A DNA stretch of 38,248 nt from Desulfobacula sp. Its GTDB lineage: Bacteria; Desulfobacterota; Desulfobacteria; Desulfobacterales; Desulfobacteraceae. Under the pieces are notes generated by a model. The model was given only the letters and a program-made list of their open reading frames with translations, had not been told where the DNA came from and ran no database searches. Location: NCBI GenBank assembly GCA_023701135.1, contig JAMPXP010000033.1:1-38248 (forward strand), in the 5' to 3' direction. Positions within the stretch are counted from its first letter, which is position 1, and the number at the start of each line of letters is the position of its first letter. Positions 11,928 to 36,219 of this stretch are shown in pieces. Position numbers and translations under genes: made by a program.

Positions 11928-12359
11928 CTATATCAAAGCGGTAATACTTTTTCCATAGGCCTGGGCAGCCTGGATACCGCCTTGTACCCAGCTTGCCTTA
12001 AGCATCAGGGGGCCTGATACCATTTTCATTCCATAGATATTGGCCATGGTATCAAAAATTCTGCCGGGGGCCTCGCCGCTCCAGCCGTAAGCACCGAAGG
12101 CACCGCCGATTTTATCCTTGAGTTCCGCTCTTTCCGCAATAAAAAGGATTTGTTTCATGGAAGTGATCATTTCGCCGTGATAGGTGGCGGACCCAAAGGC
12201 ATATCCGTCATATCCCTTTAAATCCTCTTCGGTTTTAATATCCCCGGTTTTCTTGATCACAACCTCATGCCCTGAAATCCGTACGCCTTCGGCGATCAGA
12301 TCGGCTATTTTTTTTGTCTCATCGGTCCTTGACGCATACACAATCAATACTTTTCCCAT
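11928..12359 (-). CDS. Flavodoxin
   Basis: A 143-residue flavodoxin. It has the FMN phosphate loop (Tyr-Ala-Ser-Arg-Thr-Asp-Glu-Thr) at residues 8-15 and the Gly-Ala-Tyr-Gly-Trp-Ser-Gly flavin loop in the second half. It would carry one electron in place of ferredoxin. GGAG upstream of 12359 decides the start over an ATG six codons earlier. Placement between a FMN oxidase homologue and a thioredoxin, downstream of KorAB, makes KorAB or the hydroxyacid oxidase its likely partner (inference). Confidence 0.9.
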   Translation of the reverse strand: MGKVLIVYASRTDETKKIADLIAEGVRISGHEVVIKKTGDIKTEEDLKGYDGYAFGSATYHGEMITSMKQILFIAERAELKDKIGGAFGAYGWSGEAPGRIFDTMANIYGMKMVSGPLMLKASWVQGGIQAAQAYGKSITALI

Positions 12360-12373
12360 TCTTTTTCTCCTGT

Positions 12374-13534
12374 TCAATCCTGGTTAAATAAAATTTTTGA
12401 ATCGGCCATCTTCAGGTTTTTAGTCCCCGTCATGAACATGGCTTTTTTCAATGTCTTATGAACATGCTCAAGATGCAATTTTACACCCAGGGTCCCGGCT
12501 CCTACGGCAGCGCGGATAATGTCCCGGCCCAGAAGAACTGCATCTGCTCCCAGGGCCAGCATCTTTAAAACATCATACCCGGTTCTGACACCTCCGTCGG
12601 CGGTGAGGGTCACCGACTTTCCCACTTTTTTACGGATCAAGGGCAGGACCGTTGCAACTCCAGGCGTTGAATCCAGAACCCTTCCTCCGTGGTTGGAAAC
12701 GGCAATCACCTGAACCCCTGCATCAACACATTTCTGTGCCTCCTCCGGCATCATGACACCCTTGGCGATAAAGGGCAGCGACGTAAACCGGACCAGCTCT
12801 TCGATATCCTTCACGCTCTTTTTAAACACCGGCTGTCCCTGGCGGGCCATGATGGTGGACCCGCACCCGTCCAGATCCACGCCCACAGCCTTGCACCCAT
12901 ATTCTTGTGCTGTCTCAATGAGTTTTTTCAACACATCCTGGGACCTGGGTTTGAAAATGGGTATCCCATATCCATTGCAGGCTTTCATGGCGTTAAGCGA
13001 CGGGTGGTCTTCCCGGGTGTAAAACCAGGTATCGCCCCTAAGGCCAATAGTTCCAGCTTCTTTTGACCCTCTTAATACGGAAACGCAGAACTGGGTTTCA
13101 TCCAGGGCCTCATTGTATTTTTGGGCCCCTGCCGTTGAGGCTGCCAGCACCGGAAATTTGAGATCCACCCCGAGAAAGGAGCATGACGTATCCGGTTCAA
13201 AATGATCTCCCAGTACCGACATATTAAACTCAATTCTGGACAGAGCCTCGGTGTTGGCCCGGAATGACCTTCCCTGACCGGCCCCGCCAAGACCGATGGG
13301 CTTTCCATAGGCTTCTCTCTGGCAGATCTTATCAAAATTACCGTCGCAGGCCGGATAGGCCGCACAGATCCCCTTGAGCTTTGTTCTGGCCATGTCCCTG
13401 ACCTGCTCCAATGTGCCGGGCACCTGTTCCGTGCTCATGATCATCCGGTCATCGGCCCGGCAAATCTCGCAGGAAGCGGGTTTATTTTCAGCGTTTAATA
13501 TTTCATGACAGACGGAACAATACCATTGATTCAT
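12374..13534 (-). CDS. FMN-dependent alpha-hydroxyacid oxidase family protein with N-terminal rubredoxin-like domain
   Basis: A 386-residue fusion. Residues 1-30 are a rubrerythrin-type rubredoxin knuckle pair (Cys6-x2-Cys9, Cys22-x2-Cys25). Residues 40-386 are an FMN TIM-barrel related to lactate/glycolate oxidases, with the catalytic Ser-Asn-His-Gly-Gly-Arg motif and the FMN-phosphate segment Thr-Ala-Asp-Gly-Gly-Val-Arg-Thr-Gly. It probably oxidises a 2-hydroxyacid to the 2-oxoacid, passing electrons through its own rubredoxin centre. Extra cysteines between the domains recall the Cys-rich leader of clostridial homologues. It is 22 bp downstream of KorB, which would consume a 2-oxoacid. Confidence 0.88.
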   Translation of the reverse strand: MNQWYCSVCHEILNAENKPASCEICRADDRMIMSTEQVPGTLEQVRDMARTKLKGICAAYPACDGNFDKICQREAYGKPIGLGGAGQGRSFRANTEALSRIEFNMSVLGDHFEPDTSCSFLGVDLKFPVLAASTAGAQKYNEALDETQFCVSVLRGSKEAGTIGLRGDTWFYTREDHPSLNAMKACNGYGIPIFKPRSQDVLKKLIETAQEYGCKAVGVDLDGCGSTIMARQGQPVFKKSVKDIEELVRFTSLPFIAKGVMMPEEAQKCVDAGVQVIAVSNHGGRVLDSTPGVATVLPLIRKKVGKSVTLTADGGVRTGYDVLKMLALGADAVLLGRDIIRAAVGAGTLGVKLHLEHVHKTLKKAMFMTGTKNLKMADSKILFNQD

Positions 13535-19609: not shown

Positions 19610-20329
19610 TCATATTTTTGTTGCATCATACACCTGTGACCCGTCATGGGCCTCCTTTTTCAGAATAATCCGGGCATCGGCAATGATGCACCGATCCTTT
19701 GTGCAGATAACGGGGTTCAGGTCCAAAGAGTCCATATCCTTTTCCAGCGCCATGATGAGATGGGAGAACCTCACCAGGGTATCGGTGAGAACCTCCATAT
19801 TCACCCCGTCCCTGCCCCGGTATCCGAACAAAAGGGCCTTGGCCTTCAGGGAGTCTACCATGGACAACACATCTCCGGGCTTCAGCGGCGCCATGCGGAT
19901 GGCGGTATCATTATAAATTTCAACGGAAGTTCCGCCAATGCCAAGGACCACCACGGGGCCGAACTGGAAGTCATTTTTTGCACCAATGATCACCTCAAGA
20001 CCCTGAACCATTTCTTCCACCAGGACGGCTTCGCAGCCCTCCAGGCCTTGGAGCCTTTCCATCTCTTTTTTCAAATGACGGCTGGTGGTGATGCCGGTCA
20101 CCACGGCCTGGTATTCGGTTTTATGAAGAATTTTCTTTGAAACCGCCTTGATCACCACCGGTCCCTTGATTTTCTTTAAAAACTTTTCCGCTTTTTCAAA
20201 GGACCCGGTGAGTACAAACTCTGGGATATCCAGGCCCTGGGCTTTCATGATGGCCTTTGCAGACGGCTCCAGGACCCATCCCAGATCCTTATGGGCCTCA
20301 ATGAGGGTTTTGATCTTTTTCTTCAACAT
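19610..20329 (-). CDS. acdB: ADP-forming acyl-CoA synthetase, beta (ATP-grasp) subunit
   Basis: A 239-residue ATP-grasp subunit of the NDP-forming acyl-CoA synthetase. Its Glu-Met-Val-Gln-Gly-Leu-Glu motif and C-terminal Leu-Asp-Leu-Asn-Pro-Val segment are typical. With the alpha subunit it converts acyl-CoA plus ADP and Pi to acid, ATP and CoA, conserving energy from acyl-CoA. The ATG at 20329 has GAGG eight bases upstream, while a GTG three codons earlier sits on that site. It overlaps the alpha gene end by 7 bp. Confidence 0.92.
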   Translation of the reverse strand: MLKKKIKTLIEAHKDLGWVLEPSAKAIMKAQGLDIPEFVLTGSFEKAEKFLKKIKGPVVIKAVSKKILHKTEYQAVVTGITTSRHLKKEMERLQGLEGCEAVLVEEMVQGLEVIIGAKNDFQFGPVVVLGIGGTSVEIYNDTAIRMAPLKPGDVLSMVDSLKAKALLFGYRGRDGVNMEVLTDTLVRFSHLIMALEKDMDSLDLNPVICTKDRCIIADARIILKKEAHDGSQVYDATKI

Positions 20330-21690
20330 GGTCTGCACCTCTTCAATGCCTTTGCCATAAGGACGGCCCCATCCACAGAGGAGGCCACCGGGATATCGTT
20401 GAGTTCAAAGCCTTCGATAATGATCCTGTATTTTTCCTCATTGGGAACATAGGCAATCATGGGTTTGCCCTCATTTCTGGCCACCTGGCTGAGCTTGGCC
20501 CCGATATCGGCGGAAACACCGGGTGAATATGGAATGAGCAGGGCCAGAAGACATTCAATCCCCTTATCCCTGGCAAGATGGGTGGCTGCCGTCACAATAT
20601 CATTGTCCACGGAACTTCCGGTCAGATCCAGGGGGTTGCCCAGGGAAATGATATTCCGGATTTCCGGGGAAACCCTTTCCCGGATGGCCTCCATGGTCCC
20701 GGGGTCCAACCGGGGGACAGTCATGCCGTGAAGCTCGCAGGCGTCCACGGCAATGACGCCGTGCCCGCCGCTGAGGGACAGCACCCCTATATGGCCTTGA
20801 ATGCCTTTCTGAAAACAGCTCAGGGCTTCGCAAAAAGAGGTGAGCTCGTATTCATTGTCCGCCTCGGCCACACAATGCTGCTTCATGATATCGGAAAAGA
20901 CCCGGTAATCTCCGGCCAGAGATGCAGTATGGCTGGAAACGGCTTCCCTGCCTTTTTTGCTTTTTCCGGCCTTGAGGATGACGACGGGTTTACCGCACTG
21001 TTCAGCCTTTTGAATAAAAAGACGGCCTTCCCCTTTTTCAAACCCTTCCACATAAAAAGCAATGACCTTTGTTTCAATGTCCCTGGCAAACCAGTCCAGC
21101 ATATCGGTTTCCCGGATAAAGGCTTTATTGCCAATGCTGACCGCCAGTGATACGCCGATGCCCTGGCCTGCAAATTTCACCATCTGGTCCACCAGGACCC
21201 CGCCGCTCTGGCTGATAAACCCCACATTGCCTTTTTTGGGTCGGATGATTCTTTCCCCGGGAAGAAAAAACGTATCTACATGATCCGGCGCATAAATTCC
21301 CAGGCAATTGGGGCCCACAAAAGGAAAGCCGGCCGCCCGTGCGATATCCGTCAAGCGTTGCTGCAAAGCTCTATTGCCGGCTTCAGCAAATCCGCCGGAG
21401 ACGATGACGGCGCCCTTGACCCCCTTTTGTATGCAGTCCTCCATCACCTTTGGCACAAATTCGGCGCGAACGGCAATGACGGCCATATCAATACTTTCCT
21501 CAATATCGGCAATGTTCCGGTACAATTTTTCGCGATGAAGCATTCCGCCTTTGGGGTTTACAGGAAAGGTCTTTACAGGATACCTCAGATTATTTTTGGT
21601 ATAGATCACATTGGCCGGGTGGTTGTCCTGGGAGGTTGACACACCGATAACGGCCATGGTTGAGGGCTTGAAAAGATATTTCAGCTCCAT
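20323..21690 (-). CDS. acdA: ADP-forming acyl-CoA synthetase, alpha subunit
   Basis: A 455-residue CoA-binding/ligase-CoA subunit. An N-terminal Rossmann CoA-binding domain (Ala-Val-Ile-Gly-Val-Ser) is followed by the conserved Gly-Pro-Asn-Cys-Leu-Gly motif, the Ser-Gln-Ser-Gly-Gly loop and the phosphorylated histidine in Ser-Ser-His-Thr-Ala-Ser-Leu-Ala-Gly. The enzyme is split into two genes here, whereas many bacteria fuse them. It could use acetyl-CoA or aryl-CoA such as phenylacetyl-CoA; the sequence does not distinguish. Confidence 0.92.
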   Translation of the reverse strand: MELKYLFKPSTMAVIGVSTSQDNHPANVIYTKNNLRYPVKTFPVNPKGGMLHREKLYRNIADIEESIDMAVIAVRAEFVPKVMEDCIQKGVKGAVIVSGGFAEAGNRALQQRLTDIARAAGFPFVGPNCLGIYAPDHVDTFFLPGERIIRPKKGNVGFISQSGGVLVDQMVKFAGQGIGVSLAVSIGNKAFIRETDMLDWFARDIETKVIAFYVEGFEKGEGRLFIQKAEQCGKPVVILKAGKSKKGREAVSSHTASLAGDYRVFSDIMKQHCVAEADNEYELTSFCEALSCFQKGIQGHIGVLSLSGGHGVIAVDACELHGMTVPRLDPGTMEAIRERVSPEIRNIISLGNPLDLTGSSVDNDIVTAATHLARDKGIECLLALLIPYSPGVSADIGAKLSQVARNEGKPMIAYVPNEEKYRIIIEGFELNDIPVASSVDGAVLMAKALKRCRPC

Positions 21691-31569: not shown

Positions 31570-32526
31570 TTAAAGCACGGGCAAATCGGCACCCGCAGCA
31601 ACCGGAATACCGCAGGACGCCATCCCGGCGGCAATGGTGCGGATCATTTCCGGAAGCGCTTCGGCCCGGGTCCGGAAGGTTTCGGGCATGGGATAGCCGC
31701 GGCCCAGCGCCGTATACTTTTCCAGCCCCAGGGGGCGGTAGGGCAAAAGCTGGACAAGGGCCACCCTGCGGTCGAGCTTTTCAATGATGAACCTTGACAG
31801 GGCATGGATATTGCTCTTGTCATCGTTGTGGCCGGGAATCAAGGGTATCCGGATGATCAGGGGCTTTCCCATGTCAACGGTCCGGATGATGTTTTGGAGG
31901 ATGAGGCGGTTTCCCACGCCGGTGTAGTCCCGGTGCTTTTCAGAGTCCATATGCTTGATGTCCGTGATGACCAGGTCTGTGTGGGCATAGACCGAATCAA
32001 GGAGATCGGTGGGGCAGTGCAGGGCGGTTTCCAGGCAGGTGTGGATCTGATGGGCCCGGCAGGCCCTGAGAATCTCCCGGGTGAATTCCCACTGGACCAG
32101 GGCCTCTCCCCCGGACAGGGTGGCACCCCCCCCGGACTTTTCGTAGAACGCTGTGTCTGCCAGGATCTCTTCCATGACCCGGTCAACGGTCATCTGCTTT
32201 CCCCAGGCGGTCAGGGCATTGGCCGGGCAGGCGTCCGCACATTTCATACACCGGGTGCACAGGTCCCGGTCAATGCCGGTGATCCGTCCCTCTTTGATAA
32301 GAAGGGCTCCCCGGCCCCGTTCAGGGCAGGCCCCCAGGCAGTACCCGCACTTGTCAATGCCGATGCAGCGGGATGCATGGACCCCGATTTCGGGTCCGGG
32401 ATCCATGCTCTCCGGGTTGCTGCACCATCTGCACCTTAAGGGACAGCCCTTGAGGAAGACTTCGGTCCTGATCCCGGGGCCGTCATGGATGGTGAAGTGC
32501 TGGATATTGAAAATGATCCCGTCCAT
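31570..32526 (-). CDS. Glycyl radical enzyme activase (radical SAM)
   Basis: A 318-residue activating enzyme. The radical-SAM cluster cysteines are Cys28-x3-Cys32-x2-Cys35, preceded by the family's Gly-Pro-Gly-Ile-Arg-Thr. An inserted ferredoxin-like region (about residues 50-110) has two four-Cys motifs for extra 4Fe-4S clusters, as in activases of dehydratase/decarboxylase-type glycyl radical enzymes. It abstracts hydrogen from Gly818 of the partner encoded 9 bp upstream, using S-adenosylmethionine and low-potential electrons. Confidence 0.95.
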
Positions 32527-32534
32527 GGTTCAGG

Positions 32535-35063
32535 CTAAAAGGAGAGTTCGGTCCGGCCGATGATATCGTATTGCAGGGGTTTGCTCAACTCAACAAAATA
32601 AGCGCTGTACCCGGCCACCCGGACCATGAGATCCTTGTACTGCTCAGGGTTTTCCATGGCATCCATCAGGGTTTCCCTGCTTAATATATTGAACTGGCTG
32701 TGCATGCCCTTACATTCAAAATAGACATCGATCAGGGAGATAAGGTTGTCTCTTCCCGCGTCTCCCGAGACGCAGGAAGGGGTGAATTTCCAGTTGAGCA
32801 GGGTGCCGTTGCCGGCCCGGACATGGTCCAGCTTGGTTACGGATTTGGCAATGGCGGTGGGCCCCTTGATGTCATGGGAGCCAACCTGGGTATGGACCGG
32901 GCCTACACAATCCGAGACCGGCTCCATGGCCTTTCTCCCGTCCACGGACGCCCACTGGATCAGCCCCAGGGCCACATTGGCAGACACAGAATAGACCCCG
33001 GGCACATATGTGCCGCCCCTGGCATTGGGCCGGCCTTCCACATGCCTGCAATAGGTGTCTGCTGCGAACCGGGCCAAATCGTCGGCATAGTCGTCGTCAT
33101 TACCATAGTGGCGGACCTTGTCCGAGTTGACCAGGGCGTATAGGGCTTCGTATCCGTTCCAGTTGTTTTCGCAGGCTGCCAGAAGTTCCTTGCCCGAAAT
33201 CCTTTTCTCTTCAAAGACCAACTGCTTGACCGCAGCCAGCCCGTCGGCCACCGTGCCCACACCAACGGCCTGGGGTCCGGTGAAATTGTAGACCGCGCCG
33301 CCGGCAGTGACATCCTTTCCCCGTTCAATACAATCGTCCATGAGGGAGGACAGGAAGGGCAGAGGCTTGAGTTCCTGGTGAACCAGATCCATGACCTCTG
33401 TGGCGGCGACCATCCGGTCTGTCCAGTATTTCATCTGACGGTCATAGGATTCCAGGACCTGGTCGAAGGCGGCGGCTTCTTTGAGGCTGCCGGTGGCAGG
33501 ACCCAGGCGGTTGCCGACGCCGCCGCAGCCGTCCCACCTGGGGCAGTGGCTCCCGCATCCCATGCACCGGCCGTTGTTCAGGGCCAGTTCCAGGACCTTG
33601 GCAATGCTGAAATAAGCAGAGTCGTGCCAGCCGTACTCTTTGCCGCCGGCATCGATTTCCACACAGCCCACCACATGGTAATCCCGGGAGTCTTCCAGGC
33701 TCCGGCCCGCCTTGAGGGAGGCCGGGACCGCTGCCTCGTCGTTGAACAGCTTGGGCTGGCCCGTACCGATGCGGATCGTGTTGACGGCCTTGACCTTGAA
33801 CTCCCAGGGCGTATCCTTGTGAAACCGGACCGCCAGCCAGGGAACTCCGAGGCGGGTGTGGGCATGGGCGTCCAGGACCATATAGCTCAGGTCATTGGTG
33901 GCATCCCTTCCGTCCCGGTCCGTCCCGCCCACGGTCAGGGTATCCCCGCCCATCCCCCGGCCGGAATTGGCAATGACCGTAAGCCGGTCCCTGAGCTTGG
34001 TCCACCAGAGATCCTTGACAAAAGCGATCTCTATCAATTCCTGGATGGATTCCTGGGTGGCCCGGCCGCTTTGCAGGTCCGCCAGGTAAAAGGGGTGCAT
34101 GTACTGGTCAAAACGGCCAAAGGATACCGAGTGGCCGTTGGATTCGATGAGGATGAGGGTCGTGGCCATGAACCAGAGCTGCAGGGCCTCCCAAAAGGTG
34201 CGAGGAGGATGTTCGGACACATGGTCGCAGTTCTCTGCAATGCGGATCAGCTCCTGTTTCCATCGGGGATCAGCCTCTGTGCGGCTCATTTGCCGGGCCA
34301 GGCAGGCATACCGCTTCAGGTAGCTTCCGGCGGCATCCAGAACAATGAGTTCGGCCTGGAGGAAATCCCTTTTTTTGAGATCCTCTGATCGGGTGGGATC
34401 CAGGCTCATCAGTCGTTTCCGGGCCCGGTCCCTGATCCCGGTAAAGCCCTGGGAAAAAAGCGTTTCATAGTTGGCCTGAAGATGCCCTACCCCGCCGAAA
34501 AGATACAGGTTGAGAAGAAAGAGGCCCTTGCCCAGGTTGGAGCCTTTTTTCTCATCCTCGGACAGGCGGGAGACAATGGCCTCCTCAACGGTTCGGCCCT
34601 TCCAGAATCCCTTGATGGCCTCCAGGGCTTTTTCGCTCTTTTTGGAGATATGGTAATTGTCGTGAAGGCGGGCCTTCCAGGGATGATGCCGCATCTCATC
34701 CATGATCCAGTCATAGGAAAACTCCGGGAATATGGGAGCGGATTTCATGGGCGCGGCCATTTCCCCCACGATGAGTTCATCCCTGTGGATGCGGATGGTG
34801 ACATTCTTGAGCACATGCTCCAGGGCCAGGGCCGTCTTGATGATCTGGGGCTTGTCCTGGTGCTGTTCATAGGCCTGGGTGACCAGGCAGGCCCGTTCGT
34901 GGTCCACGGTGAATTCGGTCCTCAGGGCAAATTCCCTGAACCGGTTCACCCGGTCAAAGGGGGAGGGACTGTCGTTCATCCCGGATTCTCCTATGGCCCA
35001 CACCTTGTCAAAGGGTTCAAGCCCGCAGGGGTTTTTCTCTGCGTCTGATTTTGGTACACCCAT
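32535..35063 (-). CDS. Glycyl radical enzyme of the PFL2/dehydratase superfamily, substrate unknown
   Basis: An 842-residue glycyl radical enzyme. The radical site is Gly818 (Arg-Val-Ala-Gly-Tyr-Ser). The active-site cysteine is Cys467 with Glu469 (Gly-Cys-Val-Glu), the pair used by radical eliminases such as glycerol dehydratase, choline lyase and isethionate lyase (family knowledge). An unusual loop after the active-site strand has Cys500, Cys503, Cys507 and Cys513 (C-x2-C-x3-C-x5-C), where relatives usually have a short Asn-Gly loop. There is no microcompartment-targeting extension, and no small subunit or shell genes are nearby. AAGGAG supports the ATG. Decarboxylase or succinate-synthase roles are less likely. 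Confidence 0.9.
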   Translation of the reverse strand: MGVPKSDAEKNPCGLEPFDKVWAIGESGMNDSPSPFDRVNRFREFALRTEFTVDHERACLVTQAYEQHQDKPQIIKTALALEHVLKNVTIRIHRDELIVGEMAAPMKSAPIFPEFSYDWIMDEMRHHPWKARLHDNYHISKKSEKALEAIKGFWKGRTVEEAIVSRLSEDEKKGSNLGKGLFLLNLYLFGGVGHLQANYETLFSQGFTGIRDRARKRLMSLDPTRSEDLKKRDFLQAELIVLDAAGSYLKRYACLARQMSRTEADPRWKQELIRIAENCDHVSEHPPRTFWEALQLWFMATTLILIESNGHSVSFGRFDQYMHPFYLADLQSGRATQESIQELIEIAFVKDLWWTKLRDRLTVIANSGRGMGGDTLTVGGTDRDGRDATNDLSYMVLDAHAHTRLGVPWLAVRFHKDTPWEFKVKAVNTIRIGTGQPKLFNDEAAVPASLKAGRSLEDSRDYHVVGCVEIDAGGKEYGWHDSAYFSIAKVLELALNNGRCMGCGSHCPRWDGCGGVGNRLGPATGSLKEAAAFDQVLESYDRQMKYWTDRMVAATEVMDLVHQELKPLPFLSSLMDDCIERGKDVTAGGAVYNFTGPQAVGVGTVADGLAAVKQLVFEEKRISGKELLAACENNWNGYEALYALVNSDKVRHYGNDDDYADDLARFAADTYCRHVEGRPNARGGTYVPGVYSVSANVALGLIQWASVDGRKAMEPVSDCVGPVHTQVGSHDIKGPTAIAKSVTKLDHVRAGNGTLLNWKFTPSCVSGDAGRDNLISLIDVYFECKGMHSQFNILSRETLMDAMENPEQYKDLMVRVAGYSAYFVELSKPLQYDIIGRTELSF

Positions 35064-35078
35064 GAGATTCTCCTTTTC

Positions 35079-35438
35079 TTATGCCTTCGTCATCAGGTCC
35101 AGTGCCCTGGCAAACCACATAAATTCCCTGAAATCGCCCTCGATGGTCAGTTTTTTCTCCGTGAGGGCTGCCACGACAGCTTCGTCATTTCCCGAAGCCA
35201 TTGCTTTAAATGCCGTATCCCCGTCGCACCAGACCATGGCGGCATCGCAGCCGCCTATGGCAGTGCTGGAAAAGATCTTTCCCTTGCTGAACACATATTG
35301 CCGGCCCTTTTTATCCCGGCTGTCCTTGATGGTGAATTTCAACTGCTTGTCCCGGATGAATTGCCGAAAGACCGGATTGCGCCTGGCAGCCCTGCCCATT
35401 TTCACGGACAGGACAAACAGCAGGAGATAAAATTTCAT
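35079..35438 (-). CDS. SCP2-like hydrophobic-ligand-binding domain protein
   Basis: A 119-residue protein resembling the SCP2 sterol-carrier fold, a domain that holds lipids, acyl chains or other apolar molecules (family-level recognition, moderate). Residues 30-115 form the domain, with Phe-Ser-Lys-Gly-Lys-Ile and Leu-Thr-Ile-Glu-Gly-Asp strands; the first 15 residues are hydrophobic but too short for a clear signal. AGGAGG seven bases before the ATG at 35438 fixes the start, leaving 13 bp after the TetR stop. Its place directly before the glycyl radical enzyme suggests a hydrophobic substrate or product. Confidence 0.75.
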   Translation of the reverse strand: MKFYLLLFVLSVKMGRAARRNPVFRQFIRDKQLKFTIKDSRDKKGRQYVFSKGKIFSSTAIGGCDAAMVWCDGDTAFKAMASGNDEAVVAALTEKKLTIEGDFREFMWFARALDLMTKA

Positions 35439-35451
35439 GGTGTTGCCTCCT

Positions 35452-36156
35452 CTATCCTTTTCGTGTGCCTGTCTCACGGGGCACAATTTTTAATGCCGGT
35501 CGTTTTGCCAGGGCCGCCACTTCCCGCCGGGTATTGGTGACAATGCGGCCAATGATCTGTTCCTTGAGGGAGACCGGGTCCGGATGCATGTACTGGAGCA
35601 GGGTATTGTTGATACCGGCCACGTATCCATGCATCTGGGACCATATCTGGATCATTTCGTGGCGGAGTTCTTCCCGGTTCACGGGGATGTCACTGCCCAG
35701 GCAAGCGGTCATCCGGTCCATGAAAAACTCGGCGCATTTGAGCGCGCGGGTCAGTTCCCTGTGAGCGGTCTCTTCCATGGGTGTGCCGATATAATCCCTG
35801 TACTTGGGTACATGCCAGGTAAACAAAAGGTTGTAGATATTGGCATGGTCAAGCCCGAAATCCACATAGGCCCGGATCATGGCACCCACCTGGTCCATGG
35901 GGTCCTCCGCGGTTCTGACGGCCGCCTCAAAACGGTCCAGAAGCTGGTCAAACCCCTTGATCAGCAGGTGGAGGTAGAGTTCGTCCTGGTTGTGGAAATA
36001 ATTGTAGATGGTTTTGGCGGCAATGCCAAGGCGGGTGGCCAGTTTCCGCATGCTGAACCCGTCGTAGCCTTCGGTGACGATCAGGTCCAGGGCATGGTCC
36101 ATGATTTTTTCCCGGACCGCGTCGATCTCTTCAGAACTCCGCTGAATCTTTGGCAT
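35452..36156 (-). CDS. TetR/AcrR-family repressor
   Basis: A 234-residue regulator. Residues 10-60 are the TetR helix-turn-helix (Gly-Phe-Ser-Met-Arg-Lys-Leu-Ala...Thr-Ile-Tyr-Asn-Tyr-Phe), followed by a helical ligand-binding domain. It starts at 36156 with AAAGGAG five bases upstream, and is first in an operon with the SCP2 protein, the glycyl radical enzyme and its activase. Two tandem palindromes 18-44 bp before its start suggest autoregulation, so that an apolar substrate would derepress the whole operon (inference). Confidence 0.93.
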   Translation of the reverse strand: MPKIQRSSEEIDAVREKIMDHALDLIVTEGYDGFSMRKLATRLGIAAKTIYNYFHNQDELYLHLLIKGFDQLLDRFEAAVRTAEDPMDQVGAMIRAYVDFGLDHANIYNLLFTWHVPKYRDYIGTPMEETAHRELTRALKCAEFFMDRMTACLGSDIPVNREELRHEMIQIWSQMHGYVAGINNTLLQYMHPDPVSLKEQIIGRIVTNTRREVAALAKRPALKIVPRETGTRKG

Positions 36157-36171
36157 GGATGCTCCTTTGTT

Positions 36172-36202
36172 AAGTAACAATATTACAGTAACGTTGTTAC
36201 TT
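36172..36202. promoter_or_regulatory. Tandem TetR-type operators
   Basis: Two 13-bp dyads, GTAACAATATTAC (36174-36186) and GTAACGTTGTTAC (36188-36200), are separated by one base. The outer arms AAGTAACAA and TTGTTACTT also form a perfect 9-bp inverted repeat. They sit between a TTGACT -35-like hexamer (36209-36214, minus strand) and the TetR start. Confidence 0.8.
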
Positions 36203-36219
36203 ATAAAAAGTCAAGCCTT

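Follow-up and report, generated by a model that had tools for sequence, protein, structure and literature searches.

We examined a four-gene operon of Desulfobacula sp. in which a glycyl radical enzyme (GRE) is combined with a small protein predicted to have the fold of sterol carrier protein 2 (SCP2). The operon is located at positions 31570..36156 of a 38,248-nt stretch of DNA (contig JAMPXP010000033.1, assembly GCA_023701135.1), which is called the window and to which all positions refer unless a locus is named. The genes lie on the minus strand in the order tetR, SCP2-fold gene, GRE and activase with gaps of 13, 15 and 8 nt, in agreement with the tight packing reported in a preliminary description of the window. 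The first gene (35452..36156) encodes a TetR-family regulator of 234 amino acids (Pfam TetR_N, 43.1 bits; TetR_C_33, 40.3 bits). The second gene (35079..35438) encodes the SCP2-fold protein of 119 amino acids, a probable carrier of hydrophobic ligands according to an AlphaFold2 model and its Foldseek/VIA matches. The GRE (32535..35063) is 842 amino acids long and was assigned to the diol-dehydratase-type eliminases from Pfam, alignments, AlphaFold2 and a fold search. The fourth gene (31570..32526) encodes the radical S-adenosylmethionine (SAM) activase of the GRE, which is 318 amino acids long, contains Pfam Radical_SAM (46.4 bits) and Fer4 domains and scores 334.1 bits against TIGR02494 (cut-off 174.35). 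A small-subunit gene is not present among the four packed open reading frames (ORFs), as had been described before.

Upstream of tetR, an inverted repeat (TAAGTAACAA-13nt-TTGTTACTTA, minus strand, 36171..36203) with the core GTAACAACGTTAC at 36188-36200 is the likely TetR operator and operon promoter; a -35/-10-like pair assigned by eye (TTGACT, 36214-36209; TACTGT, 36190-36185) lies under it. The pattern GTAACNNCGTTAC occurs within 160 nt upstream of tetR in four of the eight loci that carry a GRE of the same clade (the window, L005, L014 and L083), and tetR homologues with 41-67% identity are found at all seven clade loci other than the window. The TetR protein therefore probably controls the GRE operon and is likely a local, ligand-responsive repressor; the operator-like repeat suggests autorepression until the ligand arrives.

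The eight clade loci are the window, L003, L004 (Desulfosarcina widdelii), L005, L011 (Desulfoluna limicola), L083, L084 (close to L004) and one locus of a Geobacter-labelled metagenome-assembled genome (MAG), which is divided over two contigs (L010 and L014) whose ends overlap by 20 nt inside the GRE gene. The four genes occur in the same order at all eight loci, and at each of them no other gene lies between the SCP2 gene and the GRE downstream of it. Transposase-like ORFs (by eye) are inserted between tetR and the SCP2 gene in L084, and about 560 nt separate the SCP2 gene from the GRE in L011. The preliminary description had named a lack of this adjacency as contradicting its proposal; the adjacency is conserved throughout the clade. 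The distribution of the GRE is patchy. Among 86 genomes of its family only the window genome carries it, the next best GREs being 35-38% identical, and in a phylum sample of 297 genomes seven match the HpfG model at E<=1e-250, of which the window's own alone has a clade GRE. Clade GREs are further present in two of 30 genomes of the D. widdelii family, in four of the 388 genomes of its class sample (those two included), in one of 141 genomes of the order of the Geobacter MAG and in one of 52 genomes of the class of L005.

Catalytic residues, fold and insert of the glycyl radical enzyme

The GRE carries PFL-like and Gly_radical domains, a C-x-E motif and an RVAGYS glycine loop, which place it in the eliminase class. 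The eliminase pair Cys467/Glu469 pointed out in the preliminary description is present within the full residue set of glycerol dehydratase: His164, His281, Ser282, Cys433, Glu435 and Asp447 of 1r8w align with His194, His311, Ser312, Cys467, Glu469 and Asp481 of the GRE, as expected of the diol-dehydratase type, and Gly818 completes the key residues. We take their catalytic roles to be those in 1r8w. The AlphaFold2 model of the GRE (predicted local distance difference test (pLDDT) 83.9, predicted template-modelling (TM) score 0.88) matches 1,2-propanediol and glycerol dehydratases best, with a TM score of 0.90 and 39-40% identity in the top five rows of the fold search. Because the glycerol-dehydratase residues are conserved and these dehydratases are the best fold match, the GRE is, as predicted from alignment and model, a dehydratase-type eliminase. 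The pockets of the GRE, HpfG and glycerol dehydratase were compared through alignment, in which Tyr339 of 1r8w is aligned with a glycine of a Gly-rich GRE loop that is one residue longer; this replacement may enlarge the GRE pocket.

A tree of 38 GREs was calculated after removal of insert columns. The comparison included related GREs from 13 loci (49-60% identity; some of these stretches stop near the GRE), two of which (L013 and L093) are partial and were left out of the tree. HpfG was represented by the enzymes of L060 (Enterococcus raffinosus) and L061 (Fusobacteria ZRK30), which sit in operons with hpfH, hpfE and hpfD homologues; the K. oxytoca and E. gilvus enzymes were not included. The window clade (seven full-length rows) and a superclade of 23 rows each have a value of 100 in the Shimodaira-Hasegawa-like approximate likelihood ratio test (SH-aLRT). 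In 21 of the 23 superclade rows, and in none of the other 15, the Cys loop is followed by an insert with four cysteines (C-x2-C-x3/7-C-x5-C). In the window GRE it reads C500-x2-C503-x3-C507-x5-C513 (codons 33525..33566, minus strand), and residues 511-517 of this region have pLDDT values below 50. Since the insert is missing in both HpfG-operon enzymes and in the 15 rows outside the superclade, it was probably lost in HpfG. It could form a metal site, possibly a knuckle, inside a GRE.

Some of the related GREs have a context of their own. L006:1350-6477 and L009:5168-10517 each contain two adjacent GRE genes with about 55% identity to the window GRE; in each pair the active-site region contains GWHD in one enzyme and GWKD in the other, and the two could be partners or paralogues. 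In L091, a related GRE has an upstream TetR gene and no SCP2 gene, and an alpha/beta-hydrolase gene (12197-13096) lies directly downstream. The related GRE gene at L093:8653-11187 contains an in-frame TGA that interrupts it outside the catalytic positions; the far end of that stretch has ORFs resembling MMPL and LolA (by eye). Selenocysteine was considered for the in-frame TGA of the G963 GRE and rejected: the position is not among the catalytic ones, and decay or error is therefore likelier.

The SCP2-fold protein and its gene neighbourhoods

The identification of the small protein as SCP2-like in the preliminary description is borne out by structure prediction: its model matches SCP2, UbiJ and alkylsulfatase domains over the whole domain. 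At the sequence level, the window protein has no match to Pfam PF02036 (SCP2) even at E<=10, PF02036 matches three of 21 relatives (best E 0.00095), and a sequence search against the PDB gave nothing useful. The protein is the sole match to its family profile in the window genome at E<=1. An eight-member profile has matches in 63 of the 388 genomes of the class sample (E<=1e-4), and the genomes with the four best scores (E 1.5e-62 or lower) are precisely the four that carry a GRE of the window clade, the next score being 6.4e-31. We consider it probable, on the strength of the predicted fold, that the protein is a hydrophobic-ligand carrier.

Twenty loci of more distant SCP2 relatives were picked by hand from 95 rows (hand count), mostly from the top; also chosen were four frames some 1000 residues long and the second copies that two clade genomes contain. 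The SCP2 relative is located beside, or is fused to, alcohol, aldehyde, thiamine or molybdenum enzymes at 19 of these loci, and none of these enzyme types adjoins it at the remaining one. A thiamine-diphosphate enzyme adjoins it at ten loci, eight of which also have a zinc-type alcohol dehydrogenase, an Fe-alcohol dehydrogenase with an aldehyde:ferredoxin oxidoreductase (AOR) is present at five, and at four it forms the N-terminal domain of molybdopterin enzymes (two by Pfam, AhtL-like). This recurrence with unrelated enzyme classes favours a carrier role over that of a GRE-specific helper, and a general carrier role of the family fits better. The trio of SCP2, Fe-alcohol dehydrogenase and AOR was seen in five genomes of the Desulfosarcina class sample (L118, L122, L123, L124 and L126). 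The apparent molybdopterin-enzyme fusions of about 1000 residues are at L128:6286-9255, L130:609-3635, L131:3418-6519 and L132:6222-9218, with an adjoining Fe-S subunit gene in L130 (Pfam) and L131 (by eye). L117:235-4797 contains a row of GRE, SCP2 and thiamine-diphosphate enzyme, in which a C-x-E GRE with 33% identity to that of the window is located directly upstream of SCP2; it is a second, separate GRE/SCP2 pairing.

Neighbouring genes of lipid type were found in two clade members. In the Geobacter-labelled MAG the unit is preceded by DUF1302-DUF1329-YCF48/BNR-MMPL, and followed by CobW, FeS, AOR, CoA transferase, acyl-CoA dehydrogenase, 3-hydroxyacyl-CoA dehydrogenase/hydratase, thiolase, acyl-CoA dehydrogenase and old yellow enzyme genes. 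The preceding set has the composition given in a passage on AmeABCD, an efflux system for apolar monoterpenes (PMC6394551). At the G672 locus, an acyl-CoA-synthetase-type ligase and an acyl-CoA dehydrogenase are encoded upstream and MaoC downstream. Downstream of the unit in L005, genes of URO-D-like and corrinoid-like type were recognised by eye, and the remaining five loci have no consistent neighbours (by eye; over 7.7 kb in L003). Next to the related GRE of L055, an AOR gene ends 180 nt upstream; its product is 48% identical to the AOR of the Geobacter MAG. The window genome encodes eight AORs above cut-off, none of them on the window's contig. About 10 kb from the operon, two ORFs (19610-21690) are 30-33% identical to the ligase adjoining the G672 operon.

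Proposed reaction and alternative explanations

We propose, at about even confidence, that the enzyme of the operon is an inducible radical dehydratase and that its substrate is a hydrophobic, lipid-like vicinal diol presented by the SCP2-fold protein; a substrate of the type R-CHOH-CH2OH with a bulky, apolar R is held with the same balanced confidence. Diol dehydration is suggested by the retained glycerol-dehydratase residues and the fold match to the propanediol and glycerol dehydratases, and an apolar substrate by the SCP2 fold of the partner, its strict pairing with the GRE, the neighbours in the Geobacter MAG and G672, and the contexts of distant SCP2 relatives. The preliminary description had proposed a lipid-like or aromatic substrate. 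Its lipid-like part is favoured by the SCP2 fold, the enzymes accompanying SCP2 relatives, the AmeABCD-like transporter, AOR and the beta-oxidation and acyl-CoA neighbours; the aromatic part received no specific support. Long 1,2-diols and 1-O-alkylglycerols fit as candidate substrates.

In the proposed mechanism, the TetR protein would repress its own promoter until the ligand comes. The SCP2-fold protein would hold the apolar part of the substrate and offer the diol head, which is polar, to the GRE, a way of presenting substrates that is ascribed to UbiJ and to the SCP2-fold domains of alkylsulfatases. The activase would place a radical on Gly818, from which it would move to Cys467, and Cys467 would abstract a hydrogen atom from the carbinol carbon. 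Water would then be lost with the aid of Glu469, His194, His311 and Asp481, by analogy with glycerol dehydratase, to give an aldehyde. To judge from the neighbours in relatives, this aldehyde would be oxidised, most likely by AOR, and enter beta-oxidation as a CoA thioester.

Several observations weigh against this reading. The SCP2 model is of moderate confidence, with one of five models reaching a pLDDT of 73.5 and the others 50-55. Related GRE clades lack the SCP2 gene, so the chemistry itself does not require a carrier. The main weakness is that lipid-type neighbours occur at only two of the eight clade loci; at the other six, the window included, no lipid-pathway genes adjoin (by eye; over 7.7 kb in L003), and the operon's own neighbour in the window is an amino-acid-type ABC transporter. 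The pattern GTAACNNCGTTAC was not found upstream of tetR in L003, L004, L011 and L084, and it occurs twice in the whole genome, equal to the reversed control and without enrichment. A wider TetR regulon is therefore not indicated and was rejected; the second site lies among ORFs that look unrelated by eye. Arg369 and its beta-3 loop, GRG[MF]GG[DE][ST][LM]T, are common to the GRE and the two HpfG-operon enzymes and could, judged from the alignment, bind an anion or anionic head group; the loop is poorly modelled in the GRE (residues 370-372, pLDDT below 50). Finally, a forced grouping of HpfG with the window clade was not rejected by the approximately unbiased (AU) test (p 0.13).

Alternatively, the GRE could act on a diol that is small and polar, and the SCP2-fold protein could have no part in carrying the substrate: it might help with structure or activation, or it might sense or take up an apolar product that is toxic. 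In other GREs activation is known to be steered by small accessory subunits, and the related clades keep the same catalytic set with no SCP2 gene at any of the 13 loci (two GREs being partial and some stretches ending near the GRE). The relatives of the SCP2-fold protein, which accompany or are fused to alcohol dehydrogenases, AOR, and thiamine and molybdenum enzymes, fit a carrier better, and we regard a non-carrier role as unlikely.

The GRE could also be a divergent HpfG, the (S)-2,3-dihydroxypropane-1-sulfonate (DHPS) dehydratase of sulfate reducers, as the NCBI model would annotate it. Its score against the HpfG equivalog NF048009 is 1129.8, above the cut-off of 1000, the Arg369 loop is shared, and the AU test does not reject a joint clade. 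The two HpfG-operon enzymes, however, score 1695.8 (L060) and 1643.8 (L061), whereas GRE clades with different loop residues reach 984-1065, at or near the cut-off, which therefore over-reaches: several clades outside the HpfG pair are let in at 1008-1142. In addition, the activase scores 377.9 bits against the HpfH model (cut-off 500), and homologues of hpfD and hpfE (blastp E<=1e-8, within the locus stretches examined) are present in both HpfG operons and at none of the eight clade loci. HpfG groups with L051-L053 (SH-aLRT 91), lacks the four-cysteine insert and has His in strand 1, where the window clade has Leu, Met or Phe; a lipid-fold partner would be left unexplained. Orthology to HpfG is thus weakened by scores, gene context and insert, with the tree leaving room for kinship, and we consider a divergent HpfG improbable. 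Scores, tree and context place the GRE near HpfG and outside any characterised family of known substrate, consistent with the earlier view that its pathway is not one of the well-known ones; a place inside such a family had been named in the preliminary description as contradicting its proposal. Annotation by NF048009 would label the clade proteins DHPS dehydratases and misplace organosulfonate metabolism in sulfate reducers.

About as improbable is an amphipathic substrate other than a terminal diol, such as a vicinal amino alcohol or sulfonated lipid of the sphingoid or capnine type, with Arg369 binding the anionic head, SCP2 the tail, and ammonia or sulfite as leaving group. This would unite the HpfG-like Arg with the SCP2 partner, and a passage of PMC8473560 describes CutC and IslA, GRE eliminases that release trimethylamine and sulfite, respectively. 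The glycerol-dehydratase residues His194, His311 and Asp481 are intact, however, and internal amino alcohols would give ketones, whereas the AOR neighbours imply aldehydes. A fumarate-adding GRE was rejected on the basis of the fold search, in which succinate synthases appear at ranks 48-50, and of the activase score of 233.3 bits against TIGR04003 (BssD), far below the cut-off of 496.45.

Returning to the lipid-diol dehydratase, we extend the proposal in a doubtful, speculative form. The GRE might be the first radical dehydratase to have a lipid carrier of its own and might attack long-chain 1,2-diols, for instance 1-O-alkylglycerols (ether-lipid cores). Dehydration of the latter would yield a 3-alkoxypropanal, and after its oxidation a single beta-oxidation round would produce a hemiacetal, which would break down to a C3 unit and a fatty alcohol; the SCP2 module might be a shared hydrophobe-presenting adaptor, repeatedly coupled to anaerobic glycyl radical, molybdenum, thiamine and alcohol dehydrogenase/AOR enzymes. 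Alkylglycerol monooxygenase needs oxygen. It is called the only known alkylglycerol-cleaving enzyme in passages of two papers (PMC7911779, PMC3617469), so that an anaerobic route would, speculatively, be new. In passages of the D. widdelii PP31 paper, 'alkane' is the only one of six substrate words present, in the reference list. The papers of open-licence PubMed Central that match glycyl radical (enzyme) together with SCP2 or sterol carrier protein are unrelated as judged by title; 'glycyl radical' is in none of the ether-lipid matches listed there, and 'sterol carrier protein' in none of the matches of a separate listing.

If the proposal is true, 1-O-alkylglycerol dehydration would be an oxygen-free route by which anaerobes break glycerol ether lipids. 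To our knowledge, characterised GRE eliminases act on small polar molecules; apolar compounds, for example lipid diols, would come within reach of radical dehydration through a GRE clade whose lipid-fold partner is conserved, and the SCP2/GRE pair is a defined, testable protein pair. Anaerobes may have an overlooked way of handing hydrophobes to soluble enzymes, as suggested by the wider SCP2 family, whose members lie beside or are fused to aldehyde, alcohol, thiamine and molybdenum enzymes.

Comparison with known systems

HpfG (NF048009; operon with hpfH, hpfE and hpfD) resembles the window enzyme as a GRE eliminase with 49-51% identity, the same catalytic residues, a beta-3 loop with Arg and a place in the same superclade. 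Unlike HpfG, the window clade lacks hpfD and hpfE, has the four-cysteine insert and extra SCP2 and TetR genes, and scores about 500 bits lower than the two HpfG-operon enzymes. The DHPS and isethionate sulfite-lyases (HpsG, IslA) share the GRE eliminase fold, and the window GRE scores 513 bits against the HpsG model, compared to a cut-off of 1000. The fumarate-adding GREs (benzylsuccinate and (1-methylalkyl)succinate synthases) act on apolar compounds, some of them in sulfate reducers; they differ in their weaker fold match, a small-subunit gene that is absent from the window operon, and the activase (233 versus 496 bits). UbiJ and the alkylsulfatases SdsA1 and Pisa1, with a C-terminal SCP2-fold domain, are earlier examples in which an enzyme with a hydrophobic substrate is served by an SCP2 domain. 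The window protein is similar to them in predicted fold, whereas the enzymes served are different, the identity is 7-19% and the window SCP2 is a separate gene. The closest likeness in fold is to B12-independent glycerol dehydratase (1r8w) and propanediol dehydratase (9rco, 5i2a), which share the catalytic set and give the top match; they differ in identity (37-40%) and in Tyr339 of 1r8w, opposite the glycine in the longer GRE loop. We know of no SCP2 partner for either. A diol-type dehydratase of the GRE family is thus familiar, the conserved SCP2 partner is unusual, and their pairing looks new.

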